DNA of 37,356 nucleotides from Alphaproteobacteria bacterium (lineage in GTDB: Bacteria; Pseudomonadota; Alphaproteobacteria; Rhodospirillales; Magnetovibrionaceae): contig JADGBG010000016.1 in assembly GCA_015231605.1 (NCBI GenBank), positions 1 to 37,356 on the forward strand. Reading direction: 5' to 3'. Shown piece after piece: positions 30,166 to 37,131 of the stretch (the stretch's first letter is position 1; every line of letters begins with the position of its first letter). The position numbers and the translations under genes are program-made. Under the pieces are notes generated by a model. The model had not been told where the DNA came from. It saw only the letters and a list, made by a program, of their open reading frames with translations, and ran no database searches.

Positions 30166-30293
30166 GACGGACGGGACCGCGCGCCCCGAACGCCGAGGCG
30201 CGGAGAAAACCGAGCCGCGCACGAGGGGTAGGAAAATCTACGGGTCCTGAGTCGGTGTGAGCAGAAAATCGGAATGTTATAAGAAAATAAGCC

Positions 30294-30322
30294 TTGACAA
30301 ATCGTCCTTGGTTTGTTATATA
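30294..30322 (+). promoter_or_regulatory. Strong sigma-70 promoter P1 of a duplicated promoter-leader unit
   Basis: TTGACA (30294-30299), a 17-base spacer and TATATA (30317-30322) make a near-consensus promoter, with an A-rich upstream stretch (ATAAGAAAATAAG). The same layout recurs at 32016-32044. The expected start is near 30329, just inside the identical 26-bp leader segment. Confidence 0.8.
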
Positions 30323-30324
30323 TG

Positions 30325-30350
30325 CCTTAACGAAACGGGACAGTTGCGCC
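30325..30350 (+). repeat. 26-bp leader repeat, copy 1
   Basis: The segment begins CCTTAACGAAACGGGACAG and ends in TTGCGCC. It is identical to 32048-32073. Weaker similarity continues upstream through both promoters, back to about 30279. The two copies lie 1.7 kb apart in the same orientation, on either side of the S24 repressor gene and two small genes. Confidence 0.9.
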
Positions 30351-30377
30351 TACACTCAGGGCGCGGGTCCCGTTTTT
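30329..30377 (+). ncRNA. Putative short RNA from P1 to a terminator; no coding gene follows
   Basis: From the expected start near 30329, transcription meets a two-part stem: ACGGGAC (30335-30341) with GTCCCGT (30367-30373), and GCGCC (30346-30350) with GGCGC (30360-30364), followed by five T (30373-30377). This predicts a terminated RNA of about 49 nt. No rightward gene follows, only the convergent repressor gene. The same hairpin could also terminate the repressor transcript from the other strand, since the flanks have T runs both ways. It overlaps copy 1 of the leader repeat. The remainder of the 296-base gap between 30165 and 30462 holds a 7-bp inverted repeat (GGGGCGC at 30382, GCGCCCC at 30407) and nothing else recognised. 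Confidence 0.5.
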
Positions 30378-30461
30378 CAATGGGGCGCGATGTGACGATT
30401 GTTTGAGCGCCCCCTGGGGTGGCGAACGTGGTGGGGGTCGAAGTCGGAGCGGAGAGGCGAT

Positions 30462-31091
30462 CTATTGCGCGGCCCAAACGATGCGCGCGACCCATTCCAC
30501 CTCGGACGTGGGGATTTCCCGATCCGCGTGGGCGGGGTTGAAGGAGCTGAGCTCCACCCGTTGCGCGGTTTTGCGCTTCAGCACCTTGGCCATCACTTCG
30601 CCGCCCGCGGTTTTCACCACGACCCGGTCGCCCCGGCGCACGCCCGATCCCGGAGAGACAATGACGATGTCCCCGTCACGATATACGGGCTCCATGCTAT
30701 CGCCAGATATTTCAAGGGCGTAGGAATGATCGTCCGAGGTGCCTGGGAACTTGATTTCGTCCCAGCCGCCGCCGGTCGGATAGCCTGCGTCGTCGAAATA
30801 GCCTTGCGCGCCGGCCTGGGCGAAGCCGATCAAGGGGATGTTGTGCTGGGGAACGGTGTCGCCGTCCTGGAGGTAGGCGACGAATTCCATCAGGTCCGCG
30901 CCGGTGGCGCGCAGAATCTTCGAGACGCTTTCCGTGGACGGCCAGCGCAATTTGCCTTCGCCCGTGGTGCGTTTCGACTTGTTGAACGTGGTGGGGTCCA
31001 GGCCGGCCTTGCGTGCCAAGCCCGAGGTCGACAGCCCATGGGCCGCCGCCAGCTTGTCCACCGCTTTCCAGACGTCGCCATGCTTCAACAT
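30462..31091 (-). CDS. S24-family (LexA/CI-like) transcriptional repressor
   Basis: This is a 209-residue phage-type repressor. Residues 1-75 form a helix-turn-helix (LAAAHGLSTSGLARKAGLDPTTFNKSKR). A hinge carries a possible cleavage Ala-Gly in GFAQAGAQG (about 92). The S24 peptidase domain has catalytic Ser132 in ISGDSMEPVYRDGD and Lys169 in GEVMAKVLKR, 37 residues apart as in LexA. Such repressors cut themselves when RecA is activated, which derepresses their genes. The start at 31091 lacks a clear Shine-Dalgarno sequence. It is divergent from the gene at 31222, with a palindromic operator candidate between them at 31145-31164. It is the probable switch of the phage-derived cassette. Confidence 0.9.
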   Translation of the reverse strand: MLKHGDVWKAVDKLAAAHGLSTSGLARKAGLDPTTFNKSKRTTGEGKLRWPSTESVSKILRATGADLMEFVAYLQDGDTVPQHNIPLIGFAQAGAQGYFDDAGYPTGGGWDEIKFPGTSDDHSYALEISGDSMEPVYRDGDIVIVSPGSGVRRGDRVVVKTAGGEVMAKVLKRKTAQRVELSSFNPAHADREIPTSEVEWVARIVWAAQ

Positions 31092-31144
31092 GGGAAGATC
31101 ATCACATAATCGCGGCGCAGTGTCATTAGGAAGAAATAGCCAAT

Positions 31145-31180
31145 AATTCCTTGACACAGGAATTCGCATCTCCATAGAAT
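31145..31180 (+). promoter_or_regulatory. Palindromic operator over the -35 of a rightward promoter
   Basis: AATTCCTTGACACAGGAATT (31145-31164) is a perfect 7-6-7 palindrome. It contains TTGACA (31151-31156), which with TAGAAT (31175-31180, 18-base spacer) forms a promoter for the gene at 31222. A repressor bound here would block it. The divergent S24 repressor is the obvious candidate. Confidence 0.6.
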
Positions 31181-31221
31181 AGAACAAAGCAGGAACAATC
31201 ATCCATTTTTAGGAGGACGAT

Positions 31222-31614
31222 ATGGCAAGGACCCGTTTCGTGCGCAAACCGATACCCGTAAAGCGCGTCGTGCTCTTTGTTAACTCGGAAGAGGCGTGGT
31301 TCTGGTTTGTCCGGGCGCAGCGCGCGCGCCACGACGGCGCCGTGATGTTGGAAGCCGCCACCGAGGACACCCGGCCCTGCGACCCGGACGACATCTATCG
31401 CATGGTGATGGAGCTCCACCGCAAACGCGTGTTGCATGCACACCATCTCAAGACGCTTGCGCGCTATGGATGGCGGCAATGTCCACCCGACCGGCGGGTG
31501 CGCGGCGAACATCGCGATCTCGTCCTGTGGGACGAGGCGTTGGATCGCTTGACCACGGTCATGAACGCCAAAGGGCTGATTTATCGGGAGGAAGACCATG
31601 CCGAAGCCTGTTGA
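31222..31614 (+). CDS. Hypothetical protein, first gene of the repressor-controlled pair
   Basis: This is a 130-residue protein with a strong ribosome site (AGGAGG, five bases before ATG). The N terminus is basic (MARTRFVRKPIPVKRVV), followed by a helical region (DDIYRMVMELHRKRVLHAHHLK) and LARYGWRQCPP, a charged VRGEHRDLVLWDEAL, and a Glu/Asp-rich end. The helical, basic part could bind DNA, and a position opposite a CI-like repressor is where Cro or early regulators usually sit, but no HTH is evident. No family is recognised. It overlaps the next gene by 17 bases. Confidence 0.7.
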   Translation: MARTRFVRKPIPVKRVVLFVNSEEAWFWFVRAQRARHDGAVMLEAATEDTRPCDPDDIYRMVMELHRKRVLHAHHLKTLARYGWRQCPPDRRVRGEHRDLVLWDEALDRLTTVMNAKGLIYREEDHAEAC

Positions 31615-32053
31615 TGCGAACTTCGGGGATACGGCGAAGCCCCAAGCCCTGGTGGCGTTCCACGGACGCACCGACTTCTGGTGGCTGCGCGTTCTGCGGC
31701 CGGGGTTTCGACATTGCCTCGCCGTGATCCCCGACGCGGGACAGTGGGTGATGATCAATCCGCTGTCGATCGGAACCGAGGTGTCCATCTGGCCCGGCCT
31801 CGGCGTCGAGGACATGAAGTCATGGCTGACCGGACAGGGGTATACGGTCGCAACGTGTGCGTACGACCCGCCGCGCGCCAACCGGCGTACGAACCGCCCC
31901 TTGCCCTGGCGGCCCTACACCTGCGTCGAGGCGGTGAAAAGGGCTTTGGGACTGCGCATGGCCGGGGTTCTGACGCCGTGGCAACTTTTTTGCGCACTCC
32001 ATAGGAAAAAAGTCCTTGACAAACGATCCGATCTGGCGTATAACCATCCTTAA
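31598..32053 (+). CDS. Hypothetical phage-cassette protein with possible permuted papain-like (NlpC/LRAT) layout
   Basis: This is a 151-residue protein, MPKPVDANFGDTAKPQALV onward, with GGGAGGAAG before the ATG. Two conserved-looking stretches stand out: FRHCLAVIPDAGQWVMINPLS (about 36-56) and PWRPYTCVEAVKRALGLRM (about 104-122), ending LTPWQLFCAL. A His-containing strand followed some 70 residues later by a Cys at the head of a helix is the order found in permuted NlpC/P60 and LRAT hydrolases. A cysteine hydrolase is therefore possible, but this is inferred from pattern alone. The last 13 codons contain the complete promoter P2 (TTGACA to TATAAC), so the coding end and the promoter overlap. 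Confidence 0.7.
   Translation: MPKPVDANFGDTAKPQALVAFHGRTDFWWLRVLRPGFRHCLAVIPDAGQWVMINPLSIGTEVSIWPGLGVEDMKSWLTGQGYTVATCAYDPPRANRRTNRPLPWRPYTCVEAVKRALGLRMAGVLTPWQLFCALHRKKVLDKRSDLAYNHP
32016..32044 (+). promoter_or_regulatory. Strong sigma-70 promoter P2, inside the end of the upstream gene
   Basis: TTGACA (32016-32021), a 17-base spacer and TATAAC (32039-32044). It matches P1 at 30294 in spacing and in the upstream A-rich stretch (ATAGGAAAAAAG). The expected start near 32052 coincides with the TAA stop of the 31598 gene, so the leader begins as that gene ends. It reads towards the head-protein genes. Confidence 0.8.
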
Positions 32054-32073
32054 CGAAACGGGACAGTTGCGCC
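32048..32073 (+). repeat. 26-bp leader repeat, copy 2
   Basis: Identical to 30325-30350. Here it is followed by CGGACCCAGC, and the partner arm of the copy 1 hairpin is missing, so the RNA downstream folds differently (two other terminators). Confidence 0.9.
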
Positions 32074-32082
32074 CGGACCCAG

Positions 32083-32110
32083 CCCGGTGGCCTCGGCCAC
32101 CGGGTTTTTT
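32083..32110 (+). terminator. Terminator in the leader of the head-gene operon
   Basis: CCCGGTGGCC (32083-32092) and GGCCACCGGG (32095-32104), followed by six T. It stands only about 30 bases after the expected start of the P2 transcript and before all the head genes. Read-through or antitermination would be needed for their expression from P2. Confidence 0.88.
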
Positions 32111-32114
32111 CATG

Positions 32115-32135
32115 CGCGGGCGTCGCCCGCGTTTT
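32115..32135 (+). terminator. Second terminator-like hairpin in the same leader
   Basis: CGCGGGC (32115-32121), loop GTC, GCCCGCG (32125-32131), then TTTT. It directly follows the first terminator. The Shine-Dalgarno AAAGGAGA and the first head-module ATG (32169) come 25 bases later. Confidence 0.6.
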
Positions 32136-32168
32136 GCATTTTCAACATCATGAAAGGAGACCCGAACA

Positions 32169-32378
32169 ATGGGTGGAATTTTCTCTAGCCCCTCCATGCC
32201 CGCCATCGCGGCGCCCGCGCCCATCGAGGACACGACCGCCGAAGAAGAAAAGAAGGCCCGCCTGGAAGGAATCGAGCGCCGTCGCCGTGGTCGCGCGGGC
32301 ACCATTCACACGTCCGAACGCGGCCTGTTGCAGTCCGCCGCCGACAAACCGAAGAAAAAAGACCTGCTGGGAGAATGA
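32169..32378 (+). CDS. Small phage protein upstream of the portal gene
   Basis: This is a 69-residue protein, MGGIFSSPSMPAIAAPAP onward. It has a Glu/Arg-rich middle (EEEKKARLEGIERRRRGR), then AGTIHTSERGLLQ and a Lys-rich end with LLGE. An excellent ribosome site (AAAGGAGACC) precedes it. Small proteins with this N-terminal GG-FS and C-terminal RGR-x-TI-x-T / LLG layout are found just before portal genes in podovirus-like prophages. The role is unknown, possibly head assembly. It overlaps the portal start (ATGA). Confidence 0.8.
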   Translation: MGGIFSSPSMPAIAAPAPIEDTTAEEEKKARLEGIERRRRGRAGTIHTSERGLLQSAADKPKKKDLLGE

Positions 32379-34003
32379 TCATGGACGAGTTAACGCCCGA
32401 GTCCGTCGTTCGGGCCTTCAAGCGCGCGAAGGACAATCGCGCGACTTGGGAGGGTCACTGGCGGGATTGTTACGACTACGCACTGCCCTTGCGTTCGCAA
32501 TCCATGGCGAAGGGGGCCAAGACCGGCGACAAGTTGTTCGACGGCACCGCGCCCGACGCGGTGGATCAACTGGCCGCAAGCCTGCTGGCCAATTTGACGC
32601 CGCCTTGGGGACGCTGGGTCGGCTTGATGCCGGGCACGGAACTGACGCCAGAACAGCGCGAACGCGTCGCGCCCGTGTTGGACAAGATCGCCACGGTGAT
32701 GCAGTCGCACTTCGACCGTTCCAACTTCGCGGTGGAAATCCATCAGTGCTACCTGGATCTGGTCACCGCGGGCACCGCGAGCTTGATGTTGGAAGAAAAC
32801 GCGTTGGGCGAGGCGTCGGCGTTTCGTTTCACCGCAGTGCCGGTGTTCGACGTGGTGTTCGATTCGGACGCCAGCGGACGGCTTCAGGGGACCATGCGGC
32901 GCATGGAAATGACCGAGCGGGAACTCCGTCAGCGTTATCCCCAGGCTCCGGAACTGGACATCCGGCGGGGCCGCGACGATTTGACGTTCGGCGACGACCG
33001 GCGCATCGGCGTGATCGAAGCCGTGATGCCGGACGACAAAGGCTACCATTACATGGCGGTGGCCGAGGCCGGGCCGGGACACGGGTTTGAGGCCACCACG
33101 TTGGCGGAAGGCCGGTTCAAGACCTCGCCGTTCATCAATTTCCGCTGGCTCAAGGCGCCGGGGGAAATCTACGGTCGTTCGCCGGTGATGAAGGCGCTGC
33201 CCGACATCAAGACCGCCAACAAGGTGGTGGAATTGACGTTGAAGAACGCTTCCATCGCCGTCACCGGCATCTGGCAGGCCGATGACGACGGCGTTCTCAA
33301 CCCCGCCAACATCAAGCTGGTGCCGGGCGCGATCATTCCCAAGGCGGTGGGCTCGCAGGGACTGACGCCGCTGGAAACGCCGGGCCGCTTCGACATTTCG
33401 GGAATCGTGCTGGACAACCTGCGCGAACGCATCCGCACGTCGTTGCTGACGGACAAGCTGGGCCAGGTCTCCGGTCCGAAAATGTCGGCGACCGAGGTGC
33501 TGGAACGCTCCGCCGACATGGCGCGGCTGTTGGGCGCGACGTTCGGGCGGCTTCAGACGGAACTGCTCAACCCGTTGATCGACCGGGCGGTAGCGATCCT
33601 GCGCCGTCGCGGCGAGATCCCGGACGTGGTGATCGATGGGCGGACGATCGACATCGACTACAAGTCACCGCTGGCCCGCCGTCAATCCCAGGTCGAGGCG
33701 CAGAACGCCATCGCCTGGGTCTCCGCCGTCACCAGCCTGGGCCCCAAGGCCGCGTACATCATCGACGACATCCGCGCGGCGCGGTGGCTGGCCGACGTGT
33801 TCCGCGTGCCGGGCGATCTGCTGCGCAGCGACGAGCAGATCGAACGGCTGGCGAACGGCGCGCCTCCCATGGGGGCCATGCCCGCCAATCTGGGGGCGTT
33901 GGCCCAGGCGCTGGAAACCCAGCTGCCGTCCGAACAGGCCGCCGTCAATCCGGCCGAGGCGCTGGCCTCCGTCATGATGGAGGGGGGACCCGGCCATGGC
34001 TGA
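32375..34003 (+). CDS. Phage portal (head-to-tail connecting) protein, podovirus type
   Basis: This 542-residue protein matches the podoviral head-tail connector family: an ATWEGHWRDCYDYALPLRS start, FDGTAPDAVDQLAASLLANLTPPWGRWVG, then a beta-rich centre (AVPVFDVVFDSD), IYGRSPVMKALPDIKTANKVVE, LTDKLGQVSGPKMSATEVLERS, and a C-terminal DYKSPLARRQSQVEAQNA. The portal forms the twelve-subunit ring through which DNA enters and leaves the head. The gene looks intact. It starts at ATG 32375 (or 32381) in an overlap with the preceding gene. No terminase gene lies before it, which is the usual position. Confidence 0.93.
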   Translation: MIMDELTPESVVRAFKRAKDNRATWEGHWRDCYDYALPLRSQSMAKGAKTGDKLFDGTAPDAVDQLAASLLANLTPPWGRWVGLMPGTELTPEQRERVAPVLDKIATVMQSHFDRSNFAVEIHQCYLDLVTAGTASLMLEENALGEASAFRFTAVPVFDVVFDSDASGRLQGTMRRMEMTERELRQRYPQAPELDIRRGRDDLTFGDDRRIGVIEAVMPDDKGYHYMAVAEAGPGHGFEATTLAEGRFKTSPFINFRWLKAPGEIYGRSPVMKALPDIKTANKVVELTLKNASIAVTGIWQADDDGVLNPANIKLVPGAIIPKAVGSQGLTPLETPGRFDISGIVLDNLRERIRTSLLTDKLGQVSGPKMSATEVLERSADMARLLGATFGRLQTELLNPLIDRAVAILRRRGEIPDVVIDGRTIDIDYKSPLARRQSQVEAQNAIAWVSAVTSLGPKAAYIIDDIRAARWLADVFRVPGDLLRSDEQIERLANGAPPMGAMPANLGALAQALETQLPSEQAAVNPAEALASVMMEGGPGHG

Positions 34004-34280
34004 CGGTGAAAAAGGCTGGTCCTGGTTCGATCCCACCCGCGCCACGGAACAGGGCGCGGAAGGGGACCTTCCCGATCCCGGGCGCGAGCTGCGGCTCGCC
34101 TATGCCCGCTGTTTTGGCGGGGATGACGGGTCCAAGGTGCTGAAACACCTGCGCGCCCTCACCCTCGATCGCGCGCTGGGACCCGGTGCGCCCACCGAGA
34201 CCCTTCGCCACATCGAAGGACAACGCCAGCTCGTGAGCTACATCGCGGCGCTGACGGAACGCGGTCGCCGTGGCGGCTGA
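33996..34280 (+). CDS. Bbp19-like phage protein
   Basis: This is a 94-residue protein overlapping the portal end by eight bases. LRLAYARCFGGDDGSKVLKHL followed by LRHIEGQRQLVSYIAALTERG is the pattern of the Bbp19-like family of podovirus head-region proteins. The function is not known. Its place between portal and scaffold genes is the usual one. Confidence 0.8.
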   Translation: MADGEKGWSWFDPTRATEQGAEGDLPDPGRELRLAYARCFGGDDGSKVLKHLRALTLDRALGPGAPTETLRHIEGQRQLVSYIAALTERGRRGG

Positions 34281-35158: not shown

Positions 35159-36133
35159 ATGAAGGCCTTTCACCTGAACGGACGGATCAGCCGATCCTCC
35201 AATACGCGCCCTGAAGACGTGTTGTCGGCAAAGCAGGCGCTGCATCGTCTCGGCTTCTACGCCCTGCCGGAGTGGGGGCTCACCGATTTTCCAGACCGCG
35301 CGCTGATGGATGCCATTACGGCCTATCAGAATTCACGCGGCCTGCGAGTCGACGGGGCGATTCGCCCGGACGGCGAAACCGAGGCGGCGATCCGAAATGA
35401 GCTGTACTCAACGGCAGAACGCCTGCGCCGATTGGGCCGCAATGGCGACACTGTGCTGGCGCATATCACACCCGCCGAGGCCGATCTGTTGAAGGCGCGC
35501 GGCGGGGCCGGAACCGTCAACCCCGCCACCGGTCTGCCGGAGTTTTCCCAGAAGGAGGAAAAGGAAGGTCACTACATCTGGCGCACCATGGGCGACGGCA
35601 AAGTCCGCTCGTCTCACGCCGAGCGCGAAGGCCAGGTGTTTTCCTGGGACCACCCGCCCCAAGGCGGCCACCCCGGCGAAGCGCCGGGATGCCGGTGCTG
35701 GCCTGAAGCCGTGAAAGTCGAAAAAGACTGTGAAGAGCTAAGGCGCAAAATCGAGGCTGCGGAAAACAACCTTAAAAAGGCGGAGCAACGGTTTAACGAA
35801 GCGGCAAAGCAATTCAATGAAGCTCAAGAAGCCATTCTGCAAAAAAGGGAAGAATGCGATAGACAGGTCAAGGAGTTTCTTGTCGAGGCGGGATTCGGTG
35901 GCATAGCCGGTGGAATCACGGGGGGTGCCCTGGGCGCCGCTCGGGAAATCGGAGGGTCCGTGGCCATGCATGCGGAGGATATTTATGGCTCCTGTATCGA
36001 CAATGGCAATGAAAGTGATCAGTACAAGAAAGCGAAAGATGAACTGGACTCGGCTGTGTCGTGGATGATGTATTACCGTAAGGAGTTGGAGGGCTATCGC
36101 TCGGAATACGAACAGGGCAAATGCCAGGGCTGA
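35159..36133 (+). CDS. Peptidoglycan-binding and MuF-motif protein with variable C-terminal region
   Basis: This 324-residue protein has four parts. Residues 17-80 match the PG_binding_1 fold (LSAKQALHRLGFYALPEWG, ITAYQNSRGLRVDG). Residues 138-182 carry the phage Mu gpF-like minor head motif (WRTMGDGKVRSSHAEREG, PPQGGHPGEAPGCRC). Residues 185-240 are a charged coiled coil. Residues 244-261 are a glycine-zipper stretch (GFGGIAGGITGGALGA) that could insert into a membrane, and a Tyr/Lys/Glu-rich tail with Cys residues follows. Base composition drops sharply just after the MuF motif (26 G+C of 60 at 35761-35820). A MuF domain with a swapped-in C-terminal region is the layout of MuF polymorphic toxins. 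AAAGGAGAA precedes the ATG. A plain minor head protein is the alternative. Confidence 0.85.
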   Translation: MKAFHLNGRISRSSNTRPEDVLSAKQALHRLGFYALPEWGLTDFPDRALMDAITAYQNSRGLRVDGAIRPDGETEAAIRNELYSTAERLRRLGRNGDTVLAHITPAEADLLKARGGAGTVNPATGLPEFSQKEEKEGHYIWRTMGDGKVRSSHAEREGQVFSWDHPPQGGHPGEAPGCRCWPEAVKVEKDCEELRRKIEAAENNLKKAEQRFNEAAKQFNEAQEAILQKREECDRQVKEFLVEAGFGGIAGGITGGALGAAREIGGSVAMHAEDIYGSCIDNGNESDQYKKAKDELDSAVSWMMYYRKELEGYRSEYEQGKCQG

Positions 36134-37131
36134 ACCGTCATGGGCTCGAGCCGCAGGACCGAAGGCTCATTGGTGGAACGCCATTGGGCGATGTCTCTGT
36201 CCTGTGCCGATACTTGGGGCTCCAGCGCCAGCAAGACATCCTTGACGTTCTCGCCTAAGACTTGCGCTTTGAGCAGTGCGTAATAGGCCTCGGGAAGGTT
36301 TTTCCGGTACACGTCGCCACGTTGCAGCAAGTCAGCCGCCAAGAGATACGCATCCGTGTTTCGATCACGGCTTGCGGAAATGCTAAGCAACAACATGGCC
36401 TTCTCTGCGGAAACGTTCACGCCTTCGCCCAAGGCCAGTTGCTTTCCAAGCCGGAAGCGGGCTTGACGATGGCCCTTCGCTTCCGCTTGGGAGAGCCAAT
36501 GACAGCCGAGAACCTTGTCTTCGGGGTACTTGCCGCTATCGACCAAGCTCAGCCCGATGCGATACATCTCGTCTGAATCGCCGTTGAGCGTGCTTTCCGC
36601 CCAAGCAAATGCGTCCTCGAGTTGCGGGGACAGGTCAACGTCTTCCTTTTTCAAGCCAGCGACCAAAGGCTCATACAGAAGTGTCCGCCAGTTTGGGGTG
36701 AGCAGGCGACCCATGGCGTTTTTTGCTCGTTCAACCCGCGTCCGTGTCATCGGGTCGTCAGCTCCGAATTCCAGATACGAAAACTGCGCCAGCACTATGA
36801 TTGAAATACCGTCCCCGTGTGCGGCCACGTCCTCCAGTATCCAAAGAGCTAAACTCCGGTCTGAAGCCAGGCAGTCCTTTACGGAAAAAAATAAGCTCCA
36901 GGCCAAGGACGAAGGGGCGTTCAGGGTTTGGTTCTTGAGGTCGAACGCCCTGAGATTGCCAATGGTGTCGTGGATTTCCTGACACGACGGGCGATCGAAA
37001 ACCTTGCCTTGTTGCATGCGCCACCAGGCATCGTCGTAACGGAATTCTTGACTGTTAGAAGCGTCGAAAAGGGTGCCCGCCATGGCCGGTTGGGCGAAGA
37101 GAAACAGGAACAGGACCGCGCGTTTCAGCAT
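36094..37131 (-). CDS. Secreted Sel1-repeat protein, convergent with the MuF gene
   Basis: This 345-residue protein has a signal peptide (MLKRAVLFLFLFAQPAMAG) and Sel1/TPR-like helical repeats in the second half: MYRIGLSLVDSGKYPEDKVL, AKGHRQARFRLGKQLALGEG, and AYLLAADLLQRGDVYRKN. It is predicted to be periplasmic. Its 3' end overlaps the end of the MuF gene by 40 bases in the opposite direction, and its base composition is lower in GC than the core genes, like the C-terminal part of the MuF gene. Both were therefore probably acquired together. Sel1-repeat proteins usually act as interaction scaffolds. A role as neutraliser of the MuF protein is a hypothesis. A chromosomal envelope protein at the cassette border is the alternative. 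Confidence 0.85.
   Translation of the reverse strand: MLKRAVLFLFLFAQPAMAGTLFDASNSQEFRYDDAWWRMQQGKVFDRPSCQEIHDTIGNLRAFDLKNQTLNAPSSLAWSLFFSVKDCLASDRSLALWILEDVAAHGDGISIIVLAQFSYLEFGADDPMTRTRVERAKNAMGRLLTPNWRTLLYEPLVAGLKKEDVDLSPQLEDAFAWAESTLNGDSDEMYRIGLSLVDSGKYPEDKVLGCHWLSQAEAKGHRQARFRLGKQLALGEGVNVSAEKAMLLLSISASRDRNTDAYLLAADLLQRGDVYRKNLPEAYYALLKAQVLGENVKDVLLALEPQVSAQDRDIAQWRSTNEPSVLRLEPMTVQPWHLPCSYSER

Follow-up and report, generated by a model that had tools for sequence, protein, structure and literature searches.

A leader shared by phage-derived late promoters and dispersed genes points to a probable Q-type antitermination regulon in Alphaproteobacteria

Lambdoid phages and a few hosts use Q-type antitermination. 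In the pR'/Q systems of lambdoid phages, represented by lambda Q and Q21, a sigma-70 promoter has AACG(AT) at +1, a pause occurs about 17 nt into the transcript, and a terminator lies downstream, with the antiterminator gene upstream and the late structural genes beyond. A similar arrangement is found in a stretch of 37,356 nucleotides from an alphaproteobacterium of the family Magnetovibrionaceae (contig JADGBG010000016.1, positions 1 to 37,356; hereafter the window), in which two sigma-70 promoters are each followed by an identical 26-bp leader. One of them is the late promoter of a phage-type portal operon, and the second gene upstream of it, o130, encodes a protein whose structural model resembles Q21. 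Probably, these promoter-leader units act as pause signals in a Q-type antitermination regulon in which o130 is a new Q-like factor. Antitermination was among the roles that a first-pass annotation of the window had proposed for the segment, and it is still the best reading, given the likeness to a Q-type late promoter. The differences from the lambdoid systems are that o130 lacks sequence similarity to lambda Q or a significant match in the PDB, that the 3' block TGYGTC is strongly conserved here, and that the element is common to many dispersed promoters.

Other described systems share parts of this architecture, as far as the accessible portions of their published accounts show. The AlpR/AlpA/alpBCDE system of Pseudomonas aeruginosa likewise has an auto-cleaving repressor, an antiterminator, a -10-like CACGAT at -1 to +5 and an intrinsic terminator. 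However, AlpA controls a lysis cassette, whereas virion operons and dispersed cargo-like genes are concerned here, and the AlpA element is located between -35 and -10; AlpA and o130 are likened by description only. In these accounts, the GafY/GafZ system of the Caulobacter crescentus gene transfer agent (CcGTA) is the nearest precedent for antitermination in a domesticated phage, with a domesticated cluster, accessory promoters elsewhere and an antiterminator at the cluster promoter. It differs in that the GafZ element lies between -35 and -10 and the terminator comes after the first gene; no comparable leader is described in the accessible text, the portal here is T7-like, and GafZ and o130 are again likened by description only. 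The gene transfer agents RcGTA, BaGTA and BhGTA also consist of phage-derived genes kept by the host and partly scattered, although BaGTA has an HK97-type capsid, whereas our cluster encodes a T7-type portal and scaffold. Finally, put of phage HK022 is an antitermination signal in a phage transcript that, in the part of the account at hand, acts as RNA alone (PMC9378689). In contrast, the leader described here is linear, fixed to the -10 box and tied to a protein.

The two units of the window comprise the following features.

30294..30322, + strand: copy 1 sigma-70 promoter, TTGACA (30294-30299), 17-bp spacer, TATATA (30317-30322); promoter-plus-leader score 34.2
30325..30350, + strand: copy 1 leader, 26 bp, with AACG at 30329 (about +1) and TGCG at 30345-30348 (predicted pause)
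30332..30376, + strand: copy 1 intrinsic terminator hairpin, from folding, with the leader as its 5' arm
32016..32044, + strand: copy 2 sigma-70 promoter (late promoter), TTGACA (32016-32021), 17-bp spacer, TATAAC (32039-32044); promoter-plus-leader score 34.9
32048..32073, + strand: copy 2 leader, with AACG at 32052 and TGCG at 32068-32071
32081..32109, + strand: copy 2 intrinsic terminator 1 (hairpin 32081-32106 plus T run)
32114..32132, + strand: copy 2 terminator-like hairpin 2

Re-reading of the coordinates bears out the earlier description of two units with TTGACA, a 17-base spacer, a TATA-type -10 and an identical 26-bp segment. The A-rich stretch and -35 region are 83% alike between the copies, and we infer that an exact 26-mer present twice in 37 kb excludes chance. 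Both copies have an intrinsic terminator soon after the promoter. The terminators differ, and that they are separate structures downstream of the segment holds for copy 2, whose terminator is wholly 3' of the 26 bp and whose leader alone hardly folds, but not for copy 1, in which the segment is itself the 5' arm of the hairpin (-26.7 kcal/mol, z -5.2, equalled by none of 200 shuffles). Copy 1 lies beyond the 3' end of a repressor gene and is directed antisense into it. An Rfam scan of the window at gathering score returned two tRNAs and nothing else.

Units of this kind also occur elsewhere in the genome, in which a sequence model detects 11 copies (E <= 9.5e-12), two in the window and nine outside; its 20 rows also include eight reverse-strand matches to the same hairpins and one weak match (E 0.15) on another contig. 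The leader core AACGAAACGGGAC occurs exactly eight times in 3.18 Mb, and the version common to copies 1 and 2, AGTTGCGCC, is absent from the other nine. All 11 copies have a promoter-like stretch, including one (on contig C183) that has lost most of its leader and was missed by the later promoter-plus-leader scan. Downstream of six of the nine outside copies (C97, C102, the internal copy of C104, C175 twice and C188), a gene with an N-terminus of a peptidoglycan-binding family starts within about 300 nt, and Pfam PG_binding_1 is confirmed in five of these six genes; the C97 gene is a fragment that only its first residues identify, and the contig ends within one of the C175 genes. The copies on C37 and at the end of C104 run off their contigs, and the C183 copy is without a peptidoglycan-binding gene. 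By eye, several leaders of this genome have a second terminator immediately 5' of the start codon. For some copies the distance to a contig end is about 110 nt or less (C37:87, C104:84 and C175:108), and further copies may therefore be lost in assembly gaps.

The gene order repressor, o130, o151, portal, Bbp19-like protein and scaffold recurs in many IMG/VR stretches, for which the best 80 of 274 portal-matching stretches were kept; in relatives, variable genes, a capsid gene and tail genes follow. Promoters between o151 and the portal gene were picked by their -35 and -10 boxes alone (83 distinct regions, 70 promoters, not all independent), which makes them an unbiased test of the 3' block of the leader. 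TGYGNC is present no more than 34 nt downstream of 46 of the 70 promoters, compared with 8.5% of background windows, and in 41 of these 46 it is found 20-23 nt after the -10 box. The 41 non-redundant leaders have the approximate consensus TTnAACGAACGGCACAnnTGYGTCC, in which the TGYG and final C columns are fixed by the way the leaders were selected. A terminator-like hairpin occurs within 70 nt of 23 of the 41, compared with 1.8% of shuffles. The segment is thus kept in relatives in which terminators differ or are not found, as expected from the earlier proposal that the 5' transcribed segment is under selection irrespective of the downstream stem.

A promoter-plus-leader scan, whose matrices were built from leaders including those of some loci later scanned, gave no score of at least 22 in three shuffles of 732 kb (one strand), and at least one such match in 26 of 33 portal-holding stretches (none in L193, L194, L198, L207, L208, L214 and L216). 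The single match in L188, with a score of 23.0, is inside a tail gene and looks spurious. The expectation that the unit would recur in relatives is borne out for its layout, which is found before the portal gene in several of 16 IMG/VR relatives, but not for its exact spelling. An exact-pattern scan of viral contigs gave no matches. One of genome contigs gave 16 scattered matches, which were put down to chance because their titles name unrelated groups; both collections may lack our genome. In a pattern search of 60 genomes, our own and seven relatives matched, but the seven sites were without a promoter by eye and were also taken as chance. Exact patterns missed the true leaders of relatives because the spelling differs from genus to genus, as in the versions AACGAAACGGGACAGTTGCGCC and AGTCAACAGGAGAAGTGTGAC of two genera. 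Leader identity is 0.83 within genomes (10 pairs from eight genomes or contigs) and 0.58 between them (126 pairs), a difference reached in none of 5000 permutations.

Genus-specific versions also reveal dispersed copies outside the genome of the window. In six genomes of one genus (g21), the genus version with at most two mismatches occurs 23 times, from two to seven times in each, and a reversed-pattern control occurs not at all. Ten of the 23 copies are inside the cluster, at the portal, variable-slot or capsid promoter. The genes downstream of the other 13 were judged by eye from translated N-termini: nine are of the peptidoglycan-binding type, two begin with a YW..RDP scaffold-tail motif and two are of other kinds. 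Matches by tblastn back two of the peptidoglycan-binding genes (L267 and L268) and both scaffold-like genes (L271 and L272), with no match in L269 (the locus of L230). In a second genus (g33), each of the 13 genomes examined carries two leaders: one, scoring 29.1-34.7, belongs to the portal promoter, and the other, scoring 21.9-25.5, precedes the o130 match by about 190-290 nt. Given the latter, a feedback role for copy 1 in the window is reasonable: it aims through the repressor gene, antisense, toward o130, and therefore may be a positive-feedback promoter. Alternatively, copy 1 could be the remnant of a cargo cassette.

The geometry of the leader resembles that of a promoter-proximal pause. 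With the -10 box set at -12 to -7, AACG begins at about +1 in copies with tandem AACGAACG and a few nucleotides later in others, and TGYG begins at about +16. Lambda pR' (TTGACT-17-TAAATT-6-AACGAT) has its AACGAT at the same place as the leader AACG. The longer pause consensus has G-11 and G-10 followed by T-3 and G-2. In the leader motif, G-11 is present in 31 of 41 sequences, and T-3, G-2, Y-1 and G+1 fit, these four being fixed by selection of the sites. The accessible part of the literature gives the elemental pause as G-10 Y-1 G+1, locates the pause at lambda pR' 16-17 bp from the start (PMC7876045), and reports that Q and AlpA need a -10-like pause element, with CACGAT in the alpB promoter (PMC6606751, PMC9371919). 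Judged from its sequence, the leader would serve as a promoter-proximal pause signal with the RNA end at about +18. Its fixed spacing to the -10 box fits a loading site on the promoter-proximal complex, and does not fit a movable RNA signal.

Both the presence and the divergence of the leader are linked to o130. Among 68 stretches holding a repressor and a portal gene, with a leader score threshold of 20, o130 and the leader occur together in 56, o130 alone in four, neither in eight and the leader alone in none (Fisher 7e-8). Two of the eight come from genomes (G108 and G122) that were fetched as a test once o130 was seen to be missing; their stretches (L207 and L208) have no o130 and no detected leader but keep the repressor, o151 and virion genes, and the g21 leader version does not occur in either genome. 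Of the 76 genomes in which the portal match is strong, 74 have o130 as counted by eye, and 12 further genomes have o130 without such a match. Where o130 is distant from the portal gene, as in several genomes, four of eight examined (G021, G043, G052 and G061) have a leader scoring at least 22 in the portal stretch. Over 39 loci, the partial Mantel correlation between leader and o130 distances is 0.40 with the portal controlled for and 0.38 with o151 controlled for, values that none of 999 permutations reached in either case; those between the leader and o151 or the portal given o130 are 0.10 (46 and 57 of 999).

The AlphaFold model of o130 (pLDDT 86.7) is mostly helical. When it was compared with 452 aligned chains, the top two rows were both Q21 (Z 6.2, over 90 and 94 residues), followed by sigma-factor chains at Z about 4 and then by unrelated chains at no more than 2.9. 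As modeled, o130 resembles Q21 in fold; it is a candidate Q-like antiterminator and possibly a member of the Q21 family. We propose that RNA polymerase starting at a leader promoter would pause and then normally terminate just downstream. Once repression by the S24-type protein is lifted, for which DNA damage is the probable trigger, o130 would be made, load on the paused polymerase in the manner of lambda Q, Q21 or AlpA and cause readthrough. This would turn on the portal operon from copy 2 and, in relatives, the capsid operon; the same switch would turn on the dispersed leader-led genes that have peptidoglycan-binding or scaffold-like N-termini.

Several observations weigh against this proposal. 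Four stretches have o130 without a leader (L102, L123, L137 and L193), and the remaining four of the eight genomes with unlinked o130 (G106, G113, G137 and G148) have no leader scoring at least 22 in the portal stretch. When o130/leader contrasts are counted on the portal tree, about three change in the same direction, none in the opposite direction and one shows no difference, which is not significant. No TGYGNC is found within 34 nt of 24 of the 70 promoters, and no terminator was detected within 70 nt of 18 of the 41 leaders. TCTG replaces TGYG in the internal copy on C175, and in most copies the sixth position of the -10-like element that starts with AACG is not the consensus T, so that a sigma-dependent pause does not follow from the sequence. 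Between -35 and -10, only GG at -16/-15 stands out (25 and 29 of 41), with no clear binding element; the alignment used here cut some -35 boxes and was relied on only near the -10 box. As for o130, the Q21 match at Z 6.2 is under the tool's safe level for helical proteins, Foldseek found no significant match (and BFVD none), a profile search of the PDB was likewise without a significant match, and hhalign gave 0.3% for lambda Q.

Some of these data might be explained in other ways. The leader could be a DNA operator just 3' of +1, where a repressor or activator from the cluster, either o130 or the S24 protein, would bind and so act on initiation and not on elongation. Its fixed distance from the -10 box, its genome-specific versions and its co-divergence with o130 would suit a DNA site equally well, and the next-best structural matches of o130 are the sigma-factor chains. 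Nevertheless, we consider an operator unlikely: the motif is not palindromic by eye, it fits the pause consensus, and terminators follow 23 of the 41 leaders. Moreover, 10 of the 41 promoters have a perfect inverted repeat at -10 (found in 9% of shuffled promoters) that could serve the repressor instead.

It is very unlikely that the segment is a cis-acting antitermination or recruiting RNA, whether of the put or nut type or a small-RNA target. It is transcribed from about +1, and eight aligned copies from our genome share a leader hairpin (copy 2, the C183 copy and the C37 twin of the C97 copy being left out). However, the copy 2 leader hardly folds, two-sided change is seen in 0 of 14 pairs, and the conserved blocks form a linear series at a fixed distance from the -10 box, so the put/nut-type signal suggested by the first-pass annotation is not favored. 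A folded leader of the HK022 put type was rejected for the nearly unstructured copy 2 leader and the lack of compensatory change among the eight copies. As to a lambda N/nut signal (boxA plus a boxB hairpin), no conserved hairpin was found by eye in the leaders of relatives, with boxA left unscored.

Recruitment resembling that of RfaH at ops, in which a consensus pause would expose a non-template-strand element to a NusG-type factor, is extremely unlikely. The co-diverging o130 is predicted to be mostly helical, no NusG-like protein is listed among its structure and profile matches, and ops is not known to require a fixed distance from its promoter. What this explanation has in its favor is the resemblance of TGYG with G at -11 to a consensus pause, of which ops is the exemplar in the accessible part of PMC5995543.

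There is hardly any chance that the leader is an inert repeat spread by recombination of toxin cassettes, with the window pair as a duplication or scar. Copies 1 and 2 do share a version unlike the other nine, no sense gene is evident between copy 1 and the repressor gene, and several copies are at contig ends, as repeats tend to be. However, leader versions particular to other genera are found there both at the corresponding promoters and before dispersed genes, and each copy in the window retains an intact promoter, spacing and terminator. Simple local duplication, also raised earlier, is not favored, given the 11 promoter-borne copies and the genome-specific versions of other genera. Nor are att-like direct repeats, given the same evidence and a pair that flanks only the repressor, o130 and o151 and not the head-tail genes.

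The two units lie in the following neighborhood.

30462..31202, - strand: S24-peptidase (LexA/CI-like) repressor
31151..31180, + strand: promoter before o130, TTGACA-18-TAGAAT
31222..31614, + strand: o130, candidate Q-like antiterminator; no significant Pfam, NCBIfam or PHROG family; model resembles Q21
31598..32053, + strand: o151, conserved protein in which Cys and His are invariant; model similar to YiiX-like cysteine peptidases (Z 5.8)
32169..32378, + strand: first late-operon gene, 69 aa; phrog_831 (E 1.1e-4)
32375..34003, + strand: T7-type head-tail connector (portal)
33996..34280, + strand: Bbp19-like phage protein
34328..35002, + strand: T7-type capsid assembly (scaffold) protein
35159..36133, + strand: PG_binding_1 N-terminus and Phage_Mu_F-like C-terminus; cargo/toxin-like, with no separate leader detected
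36094..37131, - strand: signal-peptide-like start, phrog_8741; immunity-like by position only; convergent

An AATTCC/GGAATT inverted repeat is seen by eye at 31145-31164 in the o130 promoter region, and perfect inverted repeats are located at the -10 of some late promoters of relatives (L060 1608-1685, L061 and L091). It is possible that these repeats are operators of the S24 repressor. Portal matches with E <= 1e-100 were counted by eye in 76 of 150 genomes of the order (our own included), with one locus in each, which suggests that the head-tail cluster is a vertically inherited domesticated element. Terminase-like open reading frames were noted by eye only in L190 and L223. No capsid gene was found in the genome of the window with a query that matches G001, G009 and G015. 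Contig C180 carries a tail gene from this kind of cluster (872-2782); because it begins 872 nt from the contig start, an assembly gap likely explains the missing capsid gene.

The gene at 35159-36133 belongs to a polymorphic family, with members on C97, C102, C104, C175 and C188, in which a constant peptidoglycan-binding N-terminus is joined to a changing C-terminus, including a GH108 muramidase (C104), a Mu-F-like domain (C175) and others. Downstream of two such genes, small proteins of 163 aa and of 178 aa or more are encoded, which are possibly membrane or immunity proteins, and in places an immunity-like gene adjoins a gene of the family. In relatives, leader-led genes at about 1627-2175 of L248 and, on the reverse complement, about 1573-2187 of L243 start with a motif that resembles the scaffold C-terminus (YW..RDP..V...GF..L). 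Such a scaffold-like motif on dispersed proteins, to judge from its sequence, may allow loading into capsids.

No description of the leader, o130 or the regulon was found in searches of an open-access library, with subscription journals and preprints outside the search. What appears to be new here is the putative factor family, a leader that seems to co-evolve with its factor, and dispersed cargo-like genes under the same predicted leader. A tentative extension, to which we give somewhat less than even chances, is that a single o130 switch, with its co-evolving pause leader, joins polymorphic cargo genes across the chromosome to the virion operons that encode a widespread, podovirus-like particle of domesticated origin, and thereby builds and arms a particle carrying toxin or DNA. 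The target element can be read from sequence, is specific to each genome and co-varies with o130, and it would thus offer natural swaps for the study of how an antiterminator recognizes a pause. By the same means, a sequence search may reveal the regulon of a phage-derived particle, including cargo genes that are otherwise unlinked to it.

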